From contig ONVI01000026.1 in NCBI GenBank assembly GCA_900321275.1, forward strand, positions 1 through 33,528: a DNA stretch of 33,528 nt, read 5' to 3'. Below, one piece after another: positions 9,156 through 33,528 of the stretch; position 1 is the stretch's first letter, and each line of letters begins with the position of its first letter. The notes under the pieces are model-generated. The model made no database searches, was not told the DNA's origin, and worked only from the letters and a program-made list of their open reading frames with translations. Source of the DNA: an uncultured Eubacteriales bacterium. GTDB lineage: Bacteria > Bacillota > Clostridia > Oscillospirales > Oscillospiraceae. Position numbers and translations under genes: made by a program.

Positions 9156-9184
9156 TGGACACCGACAGGGAAACATGCTATAAT
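9156..9184 (+). promoter_or_regulatory. Promoter of the double-glycine CW_7 peptide gene
   Basis: TGGACA (9156-9161), 17 bases, TATAAT (9179-9184): five of six and six of six consensus positions. Transcription would start near 9191 and leave a leader of about 48 bases to the ATG at 9239. The strength suggests high expression of the small cargo gene independent of the exporter genes. Confidence 0.8.
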
Positions 9185-9238
9185 AACGCCGTACTCGAAA
9201 AGAGCGTAAAACGAACCATACACGAGGAGGATGCAGAC

Positions 9239-9565
9239 ATGAGCGACGAAATGAAAAAACTCAGCGAGAAGCAGCTTGACGCGGTATCCGGCGGCACAAC
9301 CGCGAATCTGGTCGCGGCCTACGATGTACTGGCCGGCAAATACGGCGAGGGGCAGGATCGCGTGAACAGACTGAGCGCTGCGGGATATAACTACAACGAC
9401 GTGCAGTCCCTGGTAAACGCCCTGTGCAAGGGCTACGGCCCTGTCGCCGCCGACGTGGTCAACGGCAGGTACGGCAACAACGCCGCCCGCCGCGCAAACC
9501 TGATCCGCGCGGGCTACGATCCCGACCAGGTTCAGAATCTTGTCAACAACATGGTCTGGGGCTGA
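9239..9565 (+). CDS. Double-glycine leader peptide with two CW_7-like cell-wall-binding repeats
   Basis: The 108-residue product has a short polar leader, residues 1-19, ending LSEKQLDAVSGG, the pattern cut by C39 peptidases of ABC exporters. The remaining 89 residues are two repeats with an exact 43-residue period: GKYG at 33-36 and GRYG at 76-79, AGY at 48-50 and 91-93, DVQSLVN at 54-60 and QVQNLVN at 97-103. This pattern (GKxGxGxxRxxRLxxAGYxYxxVQxxVN) is that of CW_7 repeats, known as the peptidoglycan-binding modules of the Cpl-7 phage lysozyme. There is no enzymatic domain. A single cysteine, C63, lies between the repeats. GAGGAGG is eight bases before the ATG. The gene has its own promoter and terminator, upstream of a C39 exporter operon. 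Likely an exported wall-binding miniprotein; antagonism, wall remodelling or adhesion are all possible. Confidence 0.82.
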   Translation: MSDEMKKLSEKQLDAVSGGTTANLVAAYDVLAGKYGEGQDRVNRLSAAGYNYNDVQSLVNALCKGYGPVAADVVNGRYGNNAARRANLIRAGYDPDQVQNLVNNMVWG

Positions 9566-9583
9566 GACGAAAGCGGCCGGAAC

Positions 9584-9622
9584 AAAGCCGGGGCAGGTCC
9601 GAAGGGGCGCTGCCCCGGCTTT
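9584..9622 (+). terminator. Terminator-like hairpin after the CW_7 peptide gene
   Basis: A perfect 13-pair stem (9584-9596 with 9610-9622) ends in TTT, then CCCCGTTT. The T run is weak, so it may only partly stop transcription or may stabilise the small mRNA. Confidence 0.6.
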
Positions 9623-9671: not shown

Positions 9672-9700
9672 TTGATTTTGAAATGATTATACGGTATAAT
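9672..9700 (+). promoter_or_regulatory. Promoter of the STAS-exporter operon
   Basis: TTGATT (9672-9677), 17 bases, TATAAT (9695-9700). It would start transcription near 9707, about 70 bases before the STAS gene, and drive the genes up to 15201. Confidence 0.75.
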
Positions 9701-9779: not shown

Positions 9780-10085
9780 ATGCTGAATATTCTGAAAACG
9801 GTTGAAGACGGTACGCTGTGCTATGCCCTCGAGGGGCGGCTGGATACCACGACGGCCCCGCAGCTGGAGGAAGCGCTGAAGGGTGAGCTTGACGGCGCGG
9901 ACAAACTGGTGCTGGACTTTGCAAAGCTGGAGTACATATCTTCCGCGGGGCTTCGCGTTCTGCTCTCCGCACAGAAGGTGATGGCCAGGAAGGGCGGCAT
10001 GAAGATCCGGAACGTGAGCGACGTGATCATGGAGATCTTTGAGGTGACCGGCTTCTCCGACATTCTCGATATTGAGACGGCCTGA
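9780..10085 (+). CDS. STAS-domain protein (anti-sigma factor antagonist family)
   Basis: The 101-residue protein is a complete single STAS domain. It has the beta-strand pattern of SpoIIAA/RsbV and the loop YISSAGLRVLL (residues 52-62), whose serine (S54 or S55) is the expected phosphorylation site. Such proteins bind anti-sigma kinases or other partners in a phosphorylation-dependent way. No partner kinase or phosphatase gene is present in the window. It is the first gene of the exporter operon, 19 bases before the HlyD-like gene, and uses an AGGAGG site eight bases before ATG 9780. In this position it may regulate the exporter or sense wall stress; that is inference. Confidence 0.85.
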   Translation: MLNILKTVEDGTLCYALEGRLDTTTAPQLEEALKGELDGADKLVLDFAKLEYISSAGLRVLLSAQKVMARKGGMKIRNVSDVIMEIFEVTGFSDILDIETA

Positions 10086-10104: not shown

Positions 10105-10527
10105 ATGGATCAGAATCAGAATCTGTTTCGGAAAAAGAGCATTGAACGCATCTCCTCGCCCGAACAGCTCAATGACTATCTGCGCGTGACAAGTCCATCG
10201 ACCTGGATCATCCTCATTGCGGTCATCGTGCTGCTGGCCGGGCTCCTGCTCTGGAGCTCCGTCACCACGATTGAGAGCTATGTGGAGGGCTCGGGCGAGG
10301 TGAAAAACGGCGTCATGACCATTCGTTTTTCCGATCAGGGAAAGGCCAAGAATGTGGCGAAGGACATGGTCGTCAGCGCCGGCGATACGCAGACCGCGGT
10401 TTCCACCGTGGCGCACGACGAGAACGGCCTGATCATCGCCACCGCGCACACCGAGCTTGCAGACGGGTTCTACTCCGTCCGCGTCAGCTACAGGCAGACG
10501 CAGGTGCTGAGTCTGCTGTTTGACTGA
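10105..10527 (+). CDS. Short HlyD-like (NHLM-type) secretion accessory protein
   Basis: The product has 140 residues. Its N-terminus (LFRKKSIERISSPEQLNDYLRVTSP, split as residues 7-19 and 20-31) resembles the start of NHLM bacteriocin-system HlyD proteins, and a single transmembrane helix follows at about 33-54. About 85 extracellular residues remain, rich in beta strands. Full-length NHLM HlyD proteins have about 420 residues with a long coiled-coil hairpin and lipoyl domain; these are absent. The reading frame is clean, with its own GAGGGG site and stop, so it is a compact form and not an obvious pseudogene. It presumably assists the ABC exporter encoded next. Confidence 0.75.
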   Translation: MDQNQNLFRKKSIERISSPEQLNDYLRVTSPSTWIILIAVIVLLAGLLLWSSVTTIESYVEGSGEVKNGVMTIRFSDQGKAKNVAKDMVVSAGDTQTAVSTVAHDENGLIIATAHTELADGFYSVRVSYRQTQVLSLLFD

Positions 10528-10538
10528 GGAGACGGGTG

Positions 10539-12719
10539 ATGGCGGAAAAAAAGGTAAAAAAACCGGTAACCGGGGGCAAAGTCAAGGTACCGGTCGTCAT
10601 GCAGATGGAGGCGCTGGAGTGCGGCGCCGCCTCTCTTGCCATGGTGATGGCCTACTACGACAAGTGGGTGCCGCTGGAGCAGGTGCGCCTTGACTGCGGC
10701 GTCTCCCGCGACGGGTCGAGCGCGAAGAATATTCTCATCGCCGCGCGCAGCTACGGCTTTGAAGCCCAGGGTTACCGCTGCGAGATTTCGGCTCTGCGGG
10801 AAGAAGTCCAGCTTCCCTGCATCATCCACTGGAACTTCAACCACTTTGTCGTGCTGGACGGCTTCAAGGGGAACTATGCCTACATAAACGATCCCGCCCG
10901 CGGCGAGGTCAGGGTGCCCATGGAGGAGTTTGATTCCTCCTTCACCGGCATTGTTCTGCAGATCGTCCCCGGCCCGGATTTCGTACCCAGCGGCAAACCG
11001 AAGAGTACGCTGGAATTTGCGCGCAAGCGTCTCACGGGCGCGGGCGCGGCGGTAGCCTTCGTGCTGCTGTCCACCGTGGTGGGCTATCTCTTCGGCATCG
11101 TCAATCCCATTTTCAGCCGCTTCTTTATGGACAGACTGCTCACCGGCGAAAACAGGGAGCTGCTTATGCCCTTTATTCTGCTCCTGTCGGTCATGAGTTT
11201 TGCACAGGTGACGGTCGCCTGGGTACAGGCGATCTATTCCCGAAAGATCGACGGCAAGATGAGCATCGTCGGCAGCAGCGAGTACATGTGGAAGGTTCTG
11301 CGCATGCCGATGGAGTTCTTCTCCCAGCGCATGGCGGGCGATATTCTCCAGCGCCAGTCCACCAACGCCAGCATCGCCTCGACCCTCGTGAACACGCTGA
11401 CACCGCTGCTGCTCAACACGATCATGATGTTCTTCTATCTCTTCGTGATGCTGCGGATGAGCGTCATTCTCACCTGCGTCGGGCTTGTGACGGTGGTGCT
11501 GAACCTGCTGGTCTCGCAGATCATCTCCAAAAAGCGCGTGAACATCACCCGCGTCCAGCTGCGCGACGCCGGCAAGCTGGCCTCGGCCACGGTCTCCGGC
11601 ATCCAGATGGTGGAGACCATCAAATCCAGCGGCGCCGAGAACGGCTACTTCCAGAAATGGGCGGGCTATCAGGCTTCGGTCAACACGCAGAAGGTGAAGT
11701 TTGCAAAGCTGAACCAGTACCTCGGCTCCATTCCGAGTTTTCTGTCCTCCGTGGCCAGCGCCGCTGTTATGGTGATCGGCGTGGGATTGTGCATGGAGGG
11801 CAAGTTCACCCTCGGTGCCATCATGGCCTTCCAGGGCTTCCTGAGCTCCTTCATGGCTCCGGCCATGACCCTGGTCAGCGCCGGCCAGACCATTCAGGAG
11901 ATGCGCACGGAGATGGAGCGCGTCGAGGACGTCATGGAGTATCCGCAGGACCCGAACTACAGCGACAGCCCGCTGGTGGACGGCGCGGACTATTCCAAGC
12001 TCTCCGGCACGGTGGAGCTGAAAAACGTCAGCTTCGGCTACTCCCGTCTCGGCAAGCCCCTGATCGAGAATTTCTCCATGACCATGAAGCCGGGCAGCCG
12101 CGTGGCCTTCGTCGGCACCTCCGGCTGCGGCAAGTCTACGCTCTCCAAGCTGATCTCCGGCCTGTATCAGCCCTGGAGCGGGGAGATCCTCTTCGACGGC
12201 AAGCCCATGTCCGCCATCGACCGCAGCGTGTTCACCGGCTCGGTGGCCGTGGTGGACCAGGACATCGTGCTCTTTGAGGATACCATCGCAAACAACATCA
12301 AGATGTGGGACAACTCCATCGAGGATTTTGAAATGATCCTCGCGGCGCGTGACGCCCAGATCTATGACGATATCATGGCCCGTGACGGCGGCTTCTACGG
12401 CATGCTCACCGAGGGCGGCAAGGATCTCTCCGGCGGTCAGCGCCAGCGCATCGAGATCGCCCGCGTCCTCGCGCAGGACCCGTCCGTCATTATCATGGAC
12501 GAGGCCACCTCCGCCCTTGACGCCAAGACCGAATTTGAGCTTGTCAAGGCGGTCAAGGACCGCGGCATCACCTGCATCGTGATTGCCCACCGTCTCTCCA
12601 CCATCCGCGACTGCGACGAGATCATTGTCCTGGACAAGGGCAAGGTGATCGAACGCGGTACCCATGATGAGCTCTTCGCCAGGGGCGGCTATTATACAGA
12701 GCTCATATCCAGCGACTGA
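10539..12719 (+). CDS. Peptidase-containing ABC exporter (C39, NHLM type)
   Basis: This 726-residue half-transporter cleaves double-glycine leaders and exports the peptide. The N-terminal C39 peptidase has the oxyanion glutamine Q22, catalytic C28 in ECGAAS, H102 in NHFVVLDG and D118 in INDPARG. A six-helix membrane domain follows (about 160-450). The ATPase has Walker A GTSGCGKST (526-534), signature LSGGQ (630-634), Walker B with D654/E655 and the switch histidine H684. All catalytic residues are present. I chose ATG 10539, with GAGGAG eight bases before it; a GTG directly upstream is less likely. It lies 11 bases after the HlyD-like gene and 13 before the second transporter gene. The cargo is probably the two GG-leader peptides at 9239 and 14947. 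Confidence 0.92.
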   Translation: MAEKKVKKPVTGGKVKVPVVMQMEALECGAASLAMVMAYYDKWVPLEQVRLDCGVSRDGSSAKNILIAARSYGFEAQGYRCEISALREEVQLPCIIHWNFNHFVVLDGFKGNYAYINDPARGEVRVPMEEFDSSFTGIVLQIVPGPDFVPSGKPKSTLEFARKRLTGAGAAVAFVLLSTVVGYLFGIVNPIFSRFFMDRLLTGENRELLMPFILLLSVMSFAQVTVAWVQAIYSRKIDGKMSIVGSSEYMWKVLRMPMEFFSQRMAGDILQRQSTNASIASTLVNTLTPLLLNTIMMFFYLFVMLRMSVILTCVGLVTVVLNLLVSQIISKKRVNITRVQLRDAGKLASATVSGIQMVETIKSSGAENGYFQKWAGYQASVNTQKVKFAKLNQYLGSIPSFLSSVASAAVMVIGVGLCMEGKFTLGAIMAFQGFLSSFMAPAMTLVSAGQTIQEMRTEMERVEDVMEYPQDPNYSDSPLVDGADYSKLSGTVELKNVSFGYSRLGKPLIENFSMTMKPGSRVAFVGTSGCGKSTLSKLISGLYQPWSGEILFDGKPMSAIDRSVFTGSVAVVDQDIVLFEDTIANNIKMWDNSIEDFEMILAARDAQIYDDIMARDGGFYGMLTEGGKDLSGGQRQRIEIARVLAQDPSVIIMDEATSALDAKTEFELVKAVKDRGITCIVIAHRLSTIRDCDEIIVLDKGKVIERGTHDELFARGGYYTELISSD

Positions 12720-12732
12720 GGAGGTGTGGAAA

Positions 12733-14937
12733 ATGGGATGGTTTGACGAACAAATCCGACAGCGCAAGCTGAGCGATCAGGAGACCTTTGAGGAATCCAT
12801 TTTCCGCATGGCCTCCGTTGTCCTCGGCAAACAGAAGGCGGGCAGCCTCGATGACCAGCGCATTATCACCAAGGCCGCCATCGACGATATTCTGAAATAC
12901 TATCACGCAAAGCCCGTAGAAATTCCCGATTCCATCCACGACGCGGACGAGGCGCTGGAATTCTGCCTGCGTCCCCACGGCATCATGCGCCGCGGGGTGA
13001 AGCTGGAGGAGGGGTGGTACAAGGACGCCTACGGCCCCATGATCGCCTTCCGGAAGGAGGATGATCTGCCGGTTGCCCTGCTGCCGAAGCCCTTCATGGG
13101 CTACTGGTTCCGCGACCCCGTCACCGATAAAACATGCAAGCTCGACAAGCACACCGCCGCCCAGTTCGATCAGGAGGCGATATGCTTCTATCGGCCGATG
13201 CCGCTGAAAAAGCTCGGTATCTCCGATCTGGTCAAGTATCTCACCGACTGCCTGGACATCGGCGATTACATCTCGCTGATCGGCCTGACGCTGCTGGTCA
13301 CGCTCTTCGGCATGGTTGCCACGCCCATTACCCGCGTGCTGACCGGCTTCGTGCTGGACAGCGGGAACCGCATGCTCCTGATGGGCACGGCGGTGTTCAT
13401 GCTATGCTCCATCATTTCCAGCCAACTGATCAATATCGCGCGAGAGCTGTTCATGAGCCGCATGGAGATCAAGACCTCCCTGTCGGTGGAGGCGGCCATG
13501 ATGATGCGCCTGATGAACCTGCCGGCAAACTTCTTCCGAAAATACTCCTCCGGTGAACTCTCCAGCCGTATGAATTCCGTCAATCAGCTCTGTACGCTCC
13601 TGCTGGGCGGCGTCTTTTCCACAGGCCTGAGTTCCCTGATGAGCCTTCTCTACATTACCCAGATCTTCCACTATGCCCCTGCGCTGGTGGTGCCGGCGCT
13701 GCTCATCACCGCGGCGTCCCTCGCCGTCAGCCTGGTCAGCTCCTTCATGCAGATGCGCGTCAGCAAACAGATCATGGAGCTGGGCGCCAAGGAAAACGGC
13801 ATCAGCTTTGCACTGATCTCCGGCGTGCAGAAGGTCAAGGTCGCCGGCGCGGAGAAACGCGCCTTCGCCCGCTGGGCGGACGCCTATTCCAAGGCCGCGG
13901 AATACAGCTATAATCCGCCGCTGTTTTTGAAGGTCAACGGGGCCATTTCCACCGCCGTGAGTCTGGCCGGCACCATTATCCTGTTCTATATCGCGGTGAA
14001 GACCGAGGTCACCCCCTCGGAGTATATTGCCTTCAACGGGGCCTACGGCATGGTTTCCGGCGCTTTCTCCGCCCTGGCGGGGATCGCACTCTCCGTGGCG
14101 CAGATCAAGCCCATCCTGGAAATGGCCGAGCCTATTCTCAAGACGGAGCCGGAATCCACCGAGAACAAGACGATGGTCACCTCGCTGTCCGGAAACATTG
14201 AGCTTTCCAACGTCTATTTCCGCTACACGGACACCATGCCCTATGTGGTGGACGGCATGAGCCTCAAGATTAAGGCGGGGGAATATGTCGCCATTGTCGG
14301 CAAGACCGGCTGCGGCAAGTCCACGCTGATCCGCCTCCTGCTCGGCTTTGAGGCGCCGGAGAGAGGCGCCATCTACTATGACGGCAAGGACATGTCCAAG
14401 CTGGATCTGCGCTCCCTGCGCCGCAAGATCGGCGTCGTGATGCAGGACGGCAGCCTCTTCCAGGGGGATATCTACTCCAATATCGTGATTTCCGCGCCCC
14501 AGCTCACGCTGGACGACGCCTGGGCCGCCGCCGAGATGGCGGGCATTGCCGACGATATCCGCGCCATGCCCATGGGCATGCAGACCATTATCTCCGAGGG
14601 CGCGGGCGGTATCTCCGGCGGGCAGAAGCAGCGCCTCATGATCGCACGTGCCGTGGCCCCCAAGCCGAAGATCCTGATTTTCGACGAGGCCACCTCCGCC
14701 CTCGACAACAAGACGCAGAAGCAGGTTTCCGACGCGCTGGACAATCTCAAGTGCACACGCATCGTCATCGCGCACCGCCTGTCCACCATCCGCAACTGTG
14801 ACCGCATCCTGGTACTCGACAAAGGCCACATCACGGAGGACGGCACATATGATGAGCTGATTGCGAAAAAAGGTTTCTTTGCCGAGCTCGTCGCGCGTCA
14901 GCGCCTGGACGTCCCGACAGAAGCCGTACATTCCTGA
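12733..14937 (+). CDS. NHLP-type ABC transporter, permease/ATPase, no peptidase
   Basis: A 734-residue ABC half-transporter. The first 160 or so residues form a soluble domain without the C39 catalytic residues, as in the NHLP bacteriocin export permease/ATPase family (TIGR03797). Six membrane helices follow (about 175-440). The ATPase has Walker A GKTGCGKST (523-531), signature ISGGQ (627-631), Walker B with D651/E652 and H681. It likely forms a heterodimer with the upstream C39 transporter, as commonly seen for NHLM/NHLP pairs. AGGAGG precedes ATG 12733. The two genes are 13 bases apart. A homodimer with another substrate cannot be excluded. Confidence 0.88.
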   Translation: MGWFDEQIRQRKLSDQETFEESIFRMASVVLGKQKAGSLDDQRIITKAAIDDILKYYHAKPVEIPDSIHDADEALEFCLRPHGIMRRGVKLEEGWYKDAYGPMIAFRKEDDLPVALLPKPFMGYWFRDPVTDKTCKLDKHTAAQFDQEAICFYRPMPLKKLGISDLVKYLTDCLDIGDYISLIGLTLLVTLFGMVATPITRVLTGFVLDSGNRMLLMGTAVFMLCSIISSQLINIARELFMSRMEIKTSLSVEAAMMMRLMNLPANFFRKYSSGELSSRMNSVNQLCTLLLGGVFSTGLSSLMSLLYITQIFHYAPALVVPALLITAASLAVSLVSSFMQMRVSKQIMELGAKENGISFALISGVQKVKVAGAEKRAFARWADAYSKAAEYSYNPPLFLKVNGAISTAVSLAGTIILFYIAVKTEVTPSEYIAFNGAYGMVSGAFSALAGIALSVAQIKPILEMAEPILKTEPESTENKTMVTSLSGNIELSNVYFRYTDTMPYVVDGMSLKIKAGEYVAIVGKTGCGKSTLIRLLLGFEAPERGAIYYDGKDMSKLDLRSLRRKIGVVMQDGSLFQGDIYSNIVISAPQLTLDDAWAAAEMAGIADDIRAMPMGMQTIISEGAGGISGGQKQRLMIARAVAPKPKILIFDEATSALDNKTQKQVSDALDNLKCTRIVIAHRLSTIRNCDRILVLDKGHITEDGTYDELIAKKGFFAELVARQRLDVPTEAVHS

Positions 14938-14946
14938 GGATGGGAG

Positions 14947-15201
14947 ATGAATGAAATGGAAAACGAAAAAAGCATGATGAAAGCAGGGCAGGTGCTCCTG
15001 GACGACGAGCTGCTCGACGCGGTCTGCGGCGGACAGAGCATCTATGACCAGGCGGACGGCCTGGACAGAGATTCCTGGTTCGTAAGACTCGTGAAAAAAA
15101 TGCGGGATGAGCGGGAAGGCGATCCCAATCTTCCGCTCAGCGCGCAGGGGAGCAGCGCGCCCCGCGGCGCGACCGTCGCGGGATACCGCAATATGTCCTG
15201 A
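14947..15201 (+). CDS. Second double-glycine leader peptide
   Basis: This 84-residue product has a leader, residues 1-29, ending LLDDELLDAVCGG. It shares LDAV-x-GG with the leader of the CW_7 peptide at 9239, so both should be handled by the same C39 peptidase. The 55-residue remainder begins QSIYDQADG and is charged, with a basic stretch VKKMRDER and a C-terminus rich in serine, alanine and glycine. It has no cysteine and no known domain, and it does not resemble CW_7. The start may be 14947 or the in-frame ATG at 14956; GGGAG favours the second. It is the last gene of the operon, ten bases after the second transporter. It could be a bacteriocin-like or signalling peptide. Confidence 0.78.
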   Translation: MNEMENEKSMMKAGQVLLDDELLDAVCGGQSIYDQADGLDRDSWFVRLVKKMRDEREGDPNLPLSAQGSSAPRGATVAGYRNMS

Positions 15202-15235: not shown

Positions 15236-15282
15236 CGGTTCTGTTTGTGCGGCATGCCGCCTCTTTTCGTCGGATGAGAAAT

Positions 15283-16497
15283 ATGATGAAATTCAATACC
15301 AGAACAAAAAAACCGAAGCTCTACAATATTGCCGTGCTCAGCGCCGTTTTGCTCGCGTGCCTGGGGCTCCTTGCAATCTACGGCGGGGAGAATACGCGCC
15401 TGCAGTGGGGAAACCTGCTTCTCACGCTGTACTTTGCCGCGGTGATCGTTCTCCTGCTGCGGGCCTTTTTCAGACAGCTTCAGTATAATCCCTATTCCTA
15501 TAACACCATCCTCTATCCGGGCTTTGCGCTCTTTGTCCTGTTCCTGTTCCTGACCCACGCCTATATCACGATCCGCTGTTTTTGTGATCCGGGCGGGTAC
15601 AAGGCGGTGGAGATGCTGTTTACACTGGTGCACTCGGCGAAGAACTACATCCTTCTGACCATGCCGCTGCTGATCGCGTTTTCGATTTCCCTTTTCGTCT
15701 CGAACATATCGCTGATCCGGCATGAGGGCGGGCGCTTTGTGAACATACTCGGCATTATTCTCGCGTTTCTGATCCTTGCCGGCGCCGTCGTGATTGCGCT
15801 TTTGGATCTGTACAGCGCCACAACCGAGAAGGGGAGCCTGGCGGCGAACCTGATCGTGAACCTGCTGGCCGCGTTCTATCTATATTTTGAATGCATGATC
15901 CTCGGCGCAATCATTGCGGATACGATCGCGGCGCGCTATATTCCCGAGCCGGACAAGGACTTTCTGATCGTGCTCGGCTGCGGTATCAAAAAGGACGGCA
16001 CACCGACCCCGCTGCTGCGGGGACGCTTGGATCTGGCGCTGAGCTTTTACGAGCGGCAGATCCGGGAGACCGGAAAAGTGCCCCGCTTCGTCGTTTCCGG
16101 CGGACAGGGCCCGGATGAAGTGCAGTCCGAGGCCGCGTCCATGCGCGATTATCTGATCGAAAAGGGAATCCCGGAAGACAGAATCCTGGTGGAGGACAAG
16201 TCTACCGACACGGCGGAAAACATGCGCTTTTCCAAAAAGATCATCGAGGAAGCCGGCGGGGGAGAGGTTGCCTTCTTTACCACGAACTATCATGTCTTCC
16301 GTGCAGGACTGAAGGCGCGGCGGGTCAAGATGCGCGCCGTCGGGATGGGCGCGCCGACCAAGTGGTATTTCTGGCCCAACGCGGCGGTTCGTGAATTCGT
16401 CGGCCTGCTCACAGAGCATCGCATGAAGCAGGGCCTGCTGCTGCTTGGACTGAGCGCAGTCTACACCGTGCTGACCGTACTGGCATACGCGCAATAA
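15283..16497 (+). CDS. YdcF/ElyC-like membrane protein (DUF218)
   Basis: The protein of about 404 residues has some six N-terminal membrane helices (about residues 12-215), then a DUF218 domain starting at DFLIVLGCG (about 226) with RGRLD, VVSGGQG and STDTAENM motifs, and a last helix near the C-terminus. Members include ElyC and SanA of E. coli, linked to envelope integrity, and Firmicute homologues with the same multi-helix front. The exact activity is unknown. The start is uncertain: ATGs at 15274, 15283 and 15286 are in frame, and GGATGAG favours 15283. It is followed after 25 bases by a small gene and may be co-transcribed with it. Confidence 0.83.
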   Translation: MMKFNTRTKKPKLYNIAVLSAVLLACLGLLAIYGGENTRLQWGNLLLTLYFAAVIVLLLRAFFRQLQYNPYSYNTILYPGFALFVLFLFLTHAYITIRCFCDPGGYKAVEMLFTLVHSAKNYILLTMPLLIAFSISLFVSNISLIRHEGGRFVNILGIILAFLILAGAVVIALLDLYSATTEKGSLAANLIVNLLAAFYLYFECMILGAIIADTIAARYIPEPDKDFLIVLGCGIKKDGTPTPLLRGRLDLALSFYERQIRETGKVPRFVVSGGQGPDEVQSEAASMRDYLIEKGIPEDRILVEDKSTDTAENMRFSKKIIEEAGGGEVAFFTTNYHVFRAGLKARRVKMRAVGMGAPTKWYFWPNAAVREFVGLLTEHRMKQGLLLLGLSAVYTVLTVLAYAQ

Positions 16498-31577: not shown

Positions 31578-31620
31578 CAAAATGGTGTGAAATACAGATT
31601 TTTCAATGGAGGGACACGCC

Positions 31621-33528
31621 ATGAAAAACACGCTGAGACTTGCGCTGGCTGTGCTGTTCTGCATCGTGCTGTGCCTGGGGATTGGTGCGGACGCCTGGGC
31701 GGAGAACTGCACAATCACATTTAGTCCTAATGGTGGATACGGAAGTATGGAACCGCAGTCTTTCATACTTAACGAGCCGTTTGCTATCAATGCAAATGAA
31801 TTCACACGCACCAACTATGTTTTCGCTGGCTGGTTGGATGAAGAAGGTAATCCTTACACGGATGGGCAAAGGAACGTAAGAATGACGAAGAATCATAACC
31901 TTACCGCCCAGTGGAAGAAAGCCTATTACAGCGTAACTTACATCAATCCCGACGACAACACCGGAAAAGCGTATACGAATATTCCTACAAGCAATAAAGT
32001 CGAGGTCATTGAGTGCCCGTTTGAGGCGAGGCAGGGCAAGATTTTTGCCGAGTGGAACACAGTTAAGAATCCTACTCTGACAAATCCCGGTGTCAGTTAC
32101 CAGCCCGGCGAGATGATCGGAACTGAACTGAATGAGATCACAAAAGAACCGAAGGATATCATGCTATACGCAATCTGGAAGGACTACGTTACAGTATACT
32201 TCTACCCCGCTGACGGAAGTTATGAAACACAGAATGTCCCTGTGAATACCGACACCAAGCTTACAACCTATAGCGCACTCCTCTTCAAAGATAAGACACC
32301 GGAGGGTCAAAACTTCGCCTATTGGGTTGATGCCGTTGGCACGAAGTATTTCAATGGTCAGGAAGTCAATCTTGCGGATAATCTGATACTCGAAGCCGTT
32401 TACGGCAATTCCATAGACCTTGTCTATAATGCAAACGGCGGAACCATCACACATGGCGACTCGACCGGCACCTCACTCAGAACCAAAATAGCAAAAGACA
32501 GGGAATATCAGTTCTATACAGCGGAGTATCTGCAGTTGAAGCGCAGCGGTTACAAGTTCCTCGGCTGGGCCTTGGGCTCAGGCGCGGATATGCCGAAAAC
32601 GGGCTGGGAAGTTGAGAATGAGCCGCTCATTGTTGCATTCCCCAACGATACAACGCTCTATGCCGTCTGGGAACAGCTTGACTTTGAGGGTATCGTGACC
32701 ATCGAGGGCAGCGTAACGTCTGGGAATCCAAACGGCCTTGTGGGCGAGACGCTGACAGCCGATGTAAACGGAGAGAAAGAGTTCTTCGATTACAAATACC
32801 AGTGGCTGCGCGACGGCGTGGAGATCTACGGCGCAACAAAGCAGACCTATACCGTGACGGCTGACGACTTTGAACACAGAATCACCTGCCGTGTGACGGC
32901 TGTTGACGCAAAGGGCGAAAAGACAAAGCTCAGTATTAACTACAAGGAAATTGAGCTCGAAGCATATACCAAAGAGATCGACATCATTGACAACCTTCCG
33001 GACGATGAAGACGACTTCCTCCGCGGCCTCACAAACGGGATGAAGTATTCCTTCAATTCGACCGATCCGAAGGACAGAGAATATGTAGACGATAAGCTTG
33101 TCACAATAAACGGCGTTAAGGCGTTCCCGTTTTATAAGCAGGGCACCTACAGATTCTATGATACGGAAGGAACGGTAGAGCAGGGAAGTCTGATCGCAAT
33201 CGTCGAGGTCAGAAACTGGTGGAGTCTCAGCTATAGCGTCACCAACCGCGTCACGACAAGCTCGTCCTCCAGCTCCAGCAGCAAGAGCTCCAGCAGTTCG
33301 AGCAGCACCAGCTCCAGCAGCGGCGGCGGCACGGTACGCATGTATAACGGCGGCACCCAGCTCACCGCGACGTCCAAGGTTACGGATAAGAGCGGAAATG
33401 TTATCATCCAGGGCACCGGCACCAATTCCTGGCTGGTGCGCGAGGGCGCGAACACCAATCTGAAGATGGTTGTCACACCTGCCATCGGAAGCTATGGCCA
33501 TGTCAGCATCAACGGCAGCAGCTACCAA
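31621..33528 (+). CDS. Secreted InlB/Listeria-Bacteroides repeat protein (partial, right end beyond the window)
   Basis: The frame is open for 636 codons to the window edge. A signal peptide covers residues 1-27 with a cleavage site after AWA. Four repeats of the InlB B-repeat / Listeria-Bacteroides type follow, at about 30-99, 101-187, 189-262 and 264-351. Each starts with a beta strand such as ITFSPNGG or DLVYNANGG, has a GW or W core, and ends in AQW, AIW or AVW. An Ig-like region with YQWLRDGVEIYGATKQTY follows (about 354-450), then a linker of almost pure serine (547-567) and GGG. Such proteins act at the cell surface in adhesion or polymer binding. TGGAGGG precedes the ATG. Its first two thirds are more A+T-rich than the neighbours. 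The anchor domain, if any, is not visible. Confidence 0.88.
   Translation, partial: MKNTLRLALAVLFCIVLCLGIGADAWAENCTITFSPNGGYGSMEPQSFILNEPFAINANEFTRTNYVFAGWLDEEGNPYTDGQRNVRMTKNHNLTAQWKKAYYSVTYINPDDNTGKAYTNIPTSNKVEVIECPFEARQGKIFAEWNTVKNPTLTNPGVSYQPGEMIGTELNEITKEPKDIMLYAIWKDYVTVYFYPADGSYETQNVPVNTDTKLTTYSALLFKDKTPEGQNFAYWVDAVGTKYFNGQEVNLADNLILEAVYGNSIDLVYNANGGTITHGDSTGTSLRTKIAKDREYQFYTAEYLQLKRSGYKFLGWALGSGADMPKTGWEVENEPLIVAFPNDTTLYAVWEQLDFEGIVTIEGSVTSGNPNGLVGETLTADVNGEKEFFDYKYQWLRDGVEIYGATKQTYTVTADDFEHRITCRVTAVDAKGEKTKLSINYKEIELEAYTKEIDIIDNLPDDEDDFLRGLTNGMKYSFNSTDPKDREYVDDKLVTINGVKAFPFYKQGTYRFYDTEGTVEQGSLIAIVEVRNWWSLSYSVTNRVTTSSSSSSSSKSSSSSSSTSSSSGGGTVRMYNGGTQLTATSKVTDKSGNVIIQGTGTNSWLVREGANTNLKMVVTPAIGSYGHVSINGSSYQ

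Follow-up and report, generated by a model that had tools for sequence, protein, structure and literature searches.

What does a bacterium do with a small, apparently exported protein that is made of cell-wall-binding repeats and carries no enzyme? This question is raised by a gene in contig ONVI01000026.1 of an uncultured Eubacteriales bacterium (assembly GCA_900321275.1), the 33,528 nucleotides of which make up the window analysed here. The gene encodes a 108-residue protein in which a double-glycine (GG) leader precedes two CW_7 repeats (Pfam PF08230), and it lies upstream of genes for an ATP-binding cassette (ABC) exporter with a C39 peptidase domain. Judged from sequence, such GG-CW_7 proteins form a conserved, genus-restricted family that is tied to the C39 exporter. 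We propose, with a probability of roughly 0.4, that this exporter releases a set of non-catalytic wall-binding proteins that coat the wall against muralytic enzymes.

The CW_7 miniprotein and its predicted binding site

The gene in question has the following layout.

9239..9565, + strand: GG-leader protein with two CW_7 repeats, 108 amino acids and then a stop; leader at 9239-9295, repeats at about 9317-9424 and 9443-9556

The preliminary description of this DNA had assigned the 108-residue product to positions 9156..9622. The product stands, and the gene itself takes up only 9239-9565, the rest of the span being a promoter-like site and a stem-loop. A Shine-Dalgarno sequence, GAGGAGG, lies ahead of the gene at 9224-9230.

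The GG leader recognised in that description was borne out at residues 1-19, with the two glycines at positions 18-19. The NCBIfam model bacteriocin_sig (TIGR01847) matches residues 5-19 at 15.3 bits, just below its cut-off of 15.7, and a leader model that we built from 24 leaders over 17 positions, the window leader among them, scores it at E 3e-5 genome-wide. No nitrile-hydratase-like or Nif11-like leader was matched on the protein in NCBIfam up to an E of 1. The Pfam CW_7 model matches the whole protein in two stretches (E 2e-27, 95.1 bits against a cut-off of 25), and the equivalent arginines, R41 and R84, set the repeat spacing at the 43 residues claimed earlier. When residues 20-108 were searched alone, the check that had been proposed with hidden Markov models, CW_7 was returned at E 9.5e-28 and was the sole Pfam match at E up to 0.01. 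As the same description had held, no other domain follows the leader; Pfam shows only CW_7 over its cut-off and no catalytic domain by which the protein could be classed as an endolysin or autolysin.

Structure prediction, likewise proposed as a check, agreed with this assignment. AlphaFold2, run with 26 sequences, predicted two three-helix bundles and a poorly ordered leader at a mean predicted local distance difference test score of 83.7, and the top two Foldseek matches in the PDB were the Cpl-7 wall-binding structures 5i8l and 4cvd. The 4cvd structure fits one repeat to 0.6 A over 36 residues (E 0.48, 47% identity), and 5i8l matches both repeats at E 1.1e-3 and 31% identity, but with a root-mean-square deviation of 12.7 A. 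Since the fit to a single repeat is good and the two-repeat deviation is large, each repeat is predicted to adopt the three-helix CW_7 fold, in a relative placement unlike that of the crystal. The mature protein would have 89 residues, a near-neutral charge of +0.4 and a volume of about 11,700 A3.

The Cpl-7 repeat has been proposed to bind N-acetylglucosamine (GlcNAc)-N-acetylmuramic acid (MurNAc)-L-Ala-D-isoGln, with Arg271 and Gln286 at the site, and replacement of this Arg or Gln with Ala in all repeats weakens the nuclear magnetic resonance (NMR) signal of the bound muropeptide (PMC5705596). The window protein has the binding-site Arg and Gln in both repeats. Among the two-repeat relatives, they are kept in 21/23 and 22/23 proteins, respectively, in repeat 1 and in 23/23 and 23/23 in repeat 2. 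From what is established for this family, the miniprotein very probably binds peptidoglycan.

Recurrence with a C39 exporter and with LysM sister proteins

We then examined the distribution of the family across genomes (labelled G) and loci (labelled L). PF08230 occurs in 19 of 60 genomes: in 18 of the 37 genomes of the genus, the source genome included, and in G044 of another family, where it is part of a GH25-CW_7-LysM lysin. The small GG form is present in 17 of the 37, and in a 412-amino-acid protein of G020 CW_7 is all that Pfam detects. We also scanned 84,980 species genomes with a sequence pattern, an approach that favours close relatives of the query, and obtained 55 loci. The small form accounts for 37 of them (L060-L095 and L107, of which three are truncated by contig ends). 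All come from uncultured genomes, the titles of which give Oscillospiraceae, Ruminococcaceae, Clostridiales, Eubacteriales or Clostridia, or Lachnospiraceae in the case of L107. Where these titles state a source, it is the rumen or duodenum of sheep, the omasum, reticulum or ileum of goat, or the abomasum of yak.

Fifty-two distinct small CW_7 frames were collected, frames being counted as distinct if their last 75 residues differ; several of them, being from related species, are not independent. Five were set aside: two that are halves of one split gene in L074, those of L081 and L094, truncated by the contig start, and that of L107, truncated by the contig end. This left 47 complete genes, every one of which encodes a GG leader (47/47). 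Recurrence beside C39 exporters in relatives, a further check proposed at the outset, was confirmed: the distance to an NHLP ABC gene is at most 2 kb for 25 of the 47, at most 3 kb for 28 and at most 10 kb for 32, and all 32 are on the exporter's strand. By an arithmetic estimate (8.5 kb of a 2.4 Mb genome), about 0.2 of the 47 would be expected within 2 kb by chance. Within the genus, GG-CW_7 is found in 16/20 exporter-bearing genomes and in 1/17 others (Fisher's test, 7e-6; the species are related). An exporter was counted in these tallies where ABC1 scored over 600 bits, and G021 (416 bits, at a contig edge) was counted as without. Beyond the genus, no leader-covering match was obtained in 390 other genomes of the class, in which the earliest match begins at query position 10 of a 542-amino-acid frame, and a search of 393 others of the order likewise yielded no GG-CW_7, the two matches at E <= 1e-12 lying in longer frames and beginning only at positions 26 and 27; these samples include no other listed genome of the genus.

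The family appears to be maintained. On a tree of 185 short repeats, which is of low resolution, the labels for GG-form and other CW_7 repeats change 5 times, compared with 62 times on average when shuffled; this separation suggests few captures followed by descent within the genus. Pairwise ratios of nonsynonymous to synonymous substitution (dN/dS) are 0.06-0.52 in the 30 closest listed pairs of 23 GG-CW_7 genes, consistent with purifying selection, and values below 1 argue that the proteins are kept and are not decaying. A phage origin of the GG form was considered and rejected, since none of the 80 viral loci listed, of 153 found, has this form.

Other CW_7 frames were also seen. In L074, a second CW_7 gene (10254-10852) is split across two frames by a frameshift, pseudogene formation or an assembly error. 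L040, L049 and L053 encode single-CW_7 GG proteins with a Tyr/Pro-rich C-terminal tail and no exporter in the stretch examined. Three viral contigs (L135:335-625, L141:619-888 and L193:5887-6138) carry CW_7 frames of 75-83 amino acids from the first Met, without a GG leader, in which Pfam shows CW_7 alone and no catalytic domain; we regard these as a separate enzyme-free CW_7 class. The viral pattern match in L149 falls in a 371-amino-acid frame that reads by eye as a lysin.

The same loci encode sister miniproteins in which a GG leader is joined to a single LysM domain. Pfam LysM E-values are 6e-11 to 1e-19 for four from relatives, and 2e-11 to 7e-18 and 7e-11 for four of the source genome, in which 7 of the 10 LysM genes found are GG-leader miniproteins. 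Across the loci there are 46 distinct LysM frames of the GG-LysM types (the leader was checked in part of this set). An exporter ABC gene lies at most 10 kb from 40 of them, 37 of these being on its strand, and at most 2 kb from 15. An alignment search of 24 genomes of the genus at E <= 1e-12, in which the matches in G001 were judged by coordinates, found GG-LysM in 11/11 exporter-bearing genomes and 0/13 others (Fisher's test, 4e-7). At E <= 1e-20 the 393 genomes from elsewhere in the order yielded no GG-LysM, and in the class sample, among the matches listed, those outside the source genome start at or after position 17 or lie in frames of at least 281 amino acids.

The exporter locus and its other cargos

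Besides the CW_7 gene, the locus contains the following features. The genes spoVAD and spoVAE lie upstream of them.

9156..9184, + strand: sigma-70-like promoter 5' of the CW_7 gene, TGGACA-17-TATAAT, 11/12 consensus positions (consensus match only)
9584..9622, + strand: strong stem-loop of 39 nucleotides 3' of the CW_7 gene, z -3.8 (81 nucleotides folded)
9672..9700, + strand: second promoter-like site, before the STAS gene, 10/12 matches
9780..10085, + strand: STAS protein of the anti-sigma factor antagonist family, Pfam 2.6e-16, TIGR00377 over its cut-off
10105..10527, + strand: short HlyD-like membrane protein, 140 amino acids, partial TIGR03794 match at 45.5 bits, below the cut-off of 156.2
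10539..12719, + strand: NHLP ABC1, C39 peptidase/permease/ATPase, TIGR03796 at 928 bits, over its cut-off, Peptidase_C39 5.6e-35
12664..14937, + strand: NHLP ABC2, permease/ATPase, TIGR03797 at 741 bits, over its cut-off
14947..15201, + strand: second GG-leader peptide, DRDSWFV type, leader model E 0.06, similar frames in relatives
15247..16497, + strand: DUF218 membrane protein, a recurrent exporter neighbour, Pfam 8.2e-28

The locus thus has both ABC proteins of an NHLP exporter, ABC1 by TIGR03796 and ABC2 by TIGR03797; the HlyD-like match spans only 1-86 of 421 positions, which falls short of an NHLP HlyD subunit. By sequence, the C39 triad of ABC1 is intact (C28, H102, D118). ABC2 is listed from its first ATG, and a likelier start is 12733, after the ABC1 stop. 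No complete C39 ABC protein besides the window ABC1 was found in the genome (the other match is partial, in a 280-amino-acid frame), so that this ABC1 would be the natural exporter for unlinked GG genes too. In the relatives L070 and L072 the full gene order is CW7-LysM-LysM-STAS-HlyD-ABC1-ABC2-GG peptide-DUF218, and L204 is another spoVAD-spoVAE-HlyD-ABC1-ABC2 locus without CW_7.

That the CW_7 protein is the entire cargo of the exporter, as was first supposed, did not hold up. The leader model finds 16 GG-leader frames in the source genome, comprising 2 CW_7, 7 LysM, 1 PepSY, 2 SH3b-like by eye (without a Pfam family over the cut-off), 2 zinc-ribbon-like, the DRDSWFV peptide and 1 unassigned, and these 16 leaders rule out a dedicated one-cargo system. 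Across 18 genomes, which were hand-chosen and not random, the model gave 93 matches at E <= 0.1, distributed over 9/9 exporter-bearing genomes and 0/9 without, where "without" means no NHLP ABC1 over 600 bits (G029 and G035 were so classed by ABC1 profile search only, not by a C39 search). Genomes that had supplied no leader to the model were matched as well (G001, 19; G015, 31; G024, 4; G027, 9). We conclude that the exporter serves GG miniproteins in general, wall-binding modules being a recurrent but not the sole freight.

Among the other freight, GG leaders in these genomes also head PepSY, beta-rich, and short or Cys-rich sequences. L244 (G000:C55:11585, minus strand) joins a GG leader to PepSY (Pfam 2e-11) and is possibly an exported protease inhibitor; L293 and L301 contain frames resembling it by eye. 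A beta-rich core of about 120 residues follows the leader in L211:8663-9082, L200, L202, L063, L068 and L296, with no Pfam family over the cut-off, and a confident model of such a cargo (83.0) has no PDB match at E <= 0.001. Many G015 cargos (L272-L283, L308) are Cys-rich with CxxC motifs, alongside some LysM proteins, and many in G001 (L284-L291, L304-L307) are very short.

The promoter scan of 8.1 kb found 8 promoter-like sites against 2.9 expected. The stem-loop, which has no clear U-run, is possibly an attenuator that separates the cargo gene from the exporter genes, and together with the two promoter-like sites it could allow more cargo than exporter to be produced. Many of the exporter loci contain a STAS gene. 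Among the 33 loci examined for neighbours, some of which overlap, 5 have a further gene near STAS (L046:9743-11887 and the clusters in L070, L072, L093 and L209), and the one tested, that of L046, joins SpoIIE and HATPase domains; 13 of the 33 have a response-regulator-like gene. SpoIIE and HATPase domains are usual components of a partner-switching stress switch. The SpoIIE-HATPase and STAS proteins could form such a switch, and it is a guess that cargo production is under stress control.

A few further observations concern the surroundings. A D-Ala-D-Ala dipeptidase-like gene lies near the exporter in L039, L063 and L090 (Peptidase_M15, tested in L090), and at the end of the window (31606-33528) a large protein with Listeria-Bacteroides (Flg_new) repeats begins and runs off the contig. 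Two other classifications were tried and rejected: a ribosomally synthesized and post-translationally modified peptide (RiPP) precursor, as no peptide-modifying enzyme was seen among the window genes scanned (Pfam, NCBIfam) or the recurrent neighbours tested, and a defence system, as PADLOC gave no match for five proteins tried.

A proposed wall coat and its rivals

Given these associations, the proteins may act as follows. Leader residues 1-19 would dock on the C39 domain and be cut after G19, and the mature 89-residue CW_7 pair would be released outside the cell; to go by the known families, cleavage and export occur in all likelihood, and the cargo volume would fit the 15,000 A3 cavity of the C39 transporter PCAT1 (PMC6959990). 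Each CW_7 bundle would bind a GlcNAc-MurNAc-L-Ala-D-isoGln unit of peptidoglycan, and the single-LysM sisters, exported in the same way, would bind glycan strands. The two kinds of protein would jointly make up a non-covalent coat, first of all on the producer's own wall, that hinders muralytic enzymes such as lysozyme and phage or rival lysins. Coating and shielding is the tentative part of this chain, drawn by analogy, and we rate it somewhat short of even odds.

Shielding, which the preliminary description had raised beside marking of the producer's wall, is the role that we favour, for several reasons. One route exports modules for different wall epitopes. Fungal single-LysM effectors offer an analogy, since they protect chitin: Mg1LysM and RiSLM protect hyphae from chitinases (PMC7337405). 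The named hosts, moreover, are ruminants, in which lysozyme c genes are expanded, four bovine copies being expressed in the abomasum (PMC8162674). Control of the producer's own CW_7 autolysins is an unlikely role because CW_7 is hardly used elsewhere in the genus, a larger CW_7 protein being present only in G020 of 37 genomes. A bolder idea is that one ruminant-gut Clostridia genus evolved, in a C39-exported CW_7 and LysM coat, a bacterial counterpart of the fungal LysM and Avr4 effectors, the muralytic attackers countered possibly including the expanded digestive lysozymes of ruminants and CW_7-bearing phage lysins; this strikes us as doubtful.

Several observations weigh against shielding or against the associations on which it is built. 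Fifteen of the 47 GG-CW_7 genes have no exporter in the stretch examined (several are near contig ends), 4 of the 20 exporter-bearing genomes lack GG-CW_7, and in G009, which is 65% complete, GG-CW_7 is present and the exporter was not found. The Fisher values overstate independence because the species are related, and G021, with its exporter fragment at a contig edge, has no GG-LysM match, so that counting it as exporter-bearing would give 11/12. The exporter is not dedicated, the GG cargos of G001 and G015 being mostly Cys-rich or very short. At the binding site, repeat 1 of the window protein has Glu at the position of the ligand-contacting Asn267 of Cpl-7 (N in 20/26), and both L034, the second copy in the source genome, and L057 lack the repeat-1 Arg. 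High-affinity wall binding by Ecp6, furthermore, is not sufficient by itself to protect fungi (PMC7337405).

The main rival to shielding is a bacteriocin-like antagonist, in which the exported CW_7 pair would bind the walls of neighbours and block wall enzymes or growth. A class II GG bacteriocin has an immunity gene linked to its own, and its core is short, membrane-active and in most cases cationic. The mature CW_7 protein does not follow this pattern, being 89 residues long, near-neutral and soluble, with no evident membrane-active stretch; neither the window genes scanned (Pfam, NCBIfam) nor the recurrent neighbours tested included a recognisable known immunity protein, the GG-CW_7 genes are under purifying selection, and a killing role is difficult to reconcile with the parallel LysM cargos. 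The bacteriocin of a new type suggested in the preliminary description thus gained no specific support, and we think an antagonist unlikely, even though C39/GG export is the usual route of bacteriocins (PMC8836110, PMC6363468), in L198 a GG peptide next to a different exporter from the genus weakly matches Bacteriocin_IIc at 20.9 bits, below the cut-off of 27.1, and an immunity function is conceivable for a recurrent uncharacterised 169-amino-acid neighbour in 9/33 loci, some of which overlap. It appears quite improbable that the proteins capture or mask soluble muropeptides, whether to signal, to recycle them or to evade sensing by the host. This idea is modelled on Ecp6, for chitin oligomers, or on a host-directed role like that of the MAM protein, a GG protein near a peptidase-containing ABC transporter (PCAT) in the same broad bacterial group that has host effects (PMC8836110). 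The CW_7 ligand in Cpl-7 is indeed GMDP, a soluble muropeptide, but binding was seen by saturation transfer difference NMR at millimolar ligand and was lost at high salt (PMC5705596), which argues that wall polymer suits CW_7 better than scavenging does, and no uptake gene was recognised nearby.

It also seems decidedly improbable that the miniproteins are anchors or scaffolds that hold exported partners or surface proteins on the wall: the tailed single-CW_7 forms and the beta-rich GG partners in some loci would suit such a role, but most forms consist of two repeats only and have no partner-binding region. Scarcely credible, finally, is a protein that is not exported at all, whether a stray lysin fragment, a pseudogene or a cytoplasmic protein in which GG occurs by chance. 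In its favour, CW_7 is known from lysins, endolysins are the top matches in PHROG, and the three short viral frames lack GG. Against this stand the conservation of GG in every complete gene, dN/dS below 1, the clustering of GG-form repeats apart from lysin repeats and the lack of the GG form in the 80 listed viral loci; the first three of these rule out a lysin fragment or pseudogene.

Relation to known systems

C39 transporters are usually read as exporters of bacteriocins, pheromones or RiPPs. Since the recurrent cargos here are complete, enzyme-free wall-binding modules, genome mining would call these loci "bacteriocin" and miss a system of surface biology. If shielding is true, it would represent a bacterial defence against lysozyme and lysins without chemical change to the wall, and would also provide small proteins with which to coat walls. 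The exporter-bearing and exporter-free species of one genus make a clean test set.

The layout had been thought undescribed, and we too found no CW_7 or LysM joined to a GG leader and a C39 exporter in the literature searched, which covered few subscription papers and bioRxiv preprints. One paper that brings together double-glycine, LysM and C39 concerns polymorphic toxins, in which LysM is an extra adhesion domain (PMC3482391), and a word search of the main text of the Hungate1000 bacteriocin survey returned no LysM, CW_7, NHLM, NHLP or peptidoglycan wording (PMC13289728).

The CW_7 miniprotein shares its repeat, predicted fold and ligand residues with the Cpl-7 endolysin module, but it has no catalytic domain and has a GG leader and a C39 transporter in place of the phage lysis route. 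The locus resembles the NHLP export system (TIGR03794/03796/03797; Haft et al. 2010, PMC2887384) in its ABC1 with C39 and its ABC2, both over curated cut-offs; it differs in that the cargo matches neither the nitrile-hydratase nor the Nif11 leader, in that the window genes scanned include no peptide-modifying enzyme, and in its short HlyD part below the cut-off. The closest known system in context is MAM of Faecalibacterium prausnitzii, a small GG protein that lies beside a C39 PCAT in some strains and, like the window gene, near an HlyD-like gene and a sporulation cluster (here spoVAD/spoVAE); the comparison is one of gene context only, and the available text describes no wall-binding module in MAM (PMC8836110). 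PCAT1 and CtA of Clostridium thermocellum likewise pair a C39 transporter with a GG protein of similar size (a 24-residue leader and 66-residue cargo), but the CtA cargo is drawn unstructured, whereas the window cargo is a known wall-binding domain (PMC6959990). Mg1LysM and RiSLM are, likewise, small, secreted, non-catalytic binders of wall glycan (PMC7337405); they are eukaryotic, use other export and bind chitin rather than peptidoglycan, so the likeness is an analogy of function and not one of membership. Compared with these systems, the exporter type and the domains are known, and what is new is the class of cargo.
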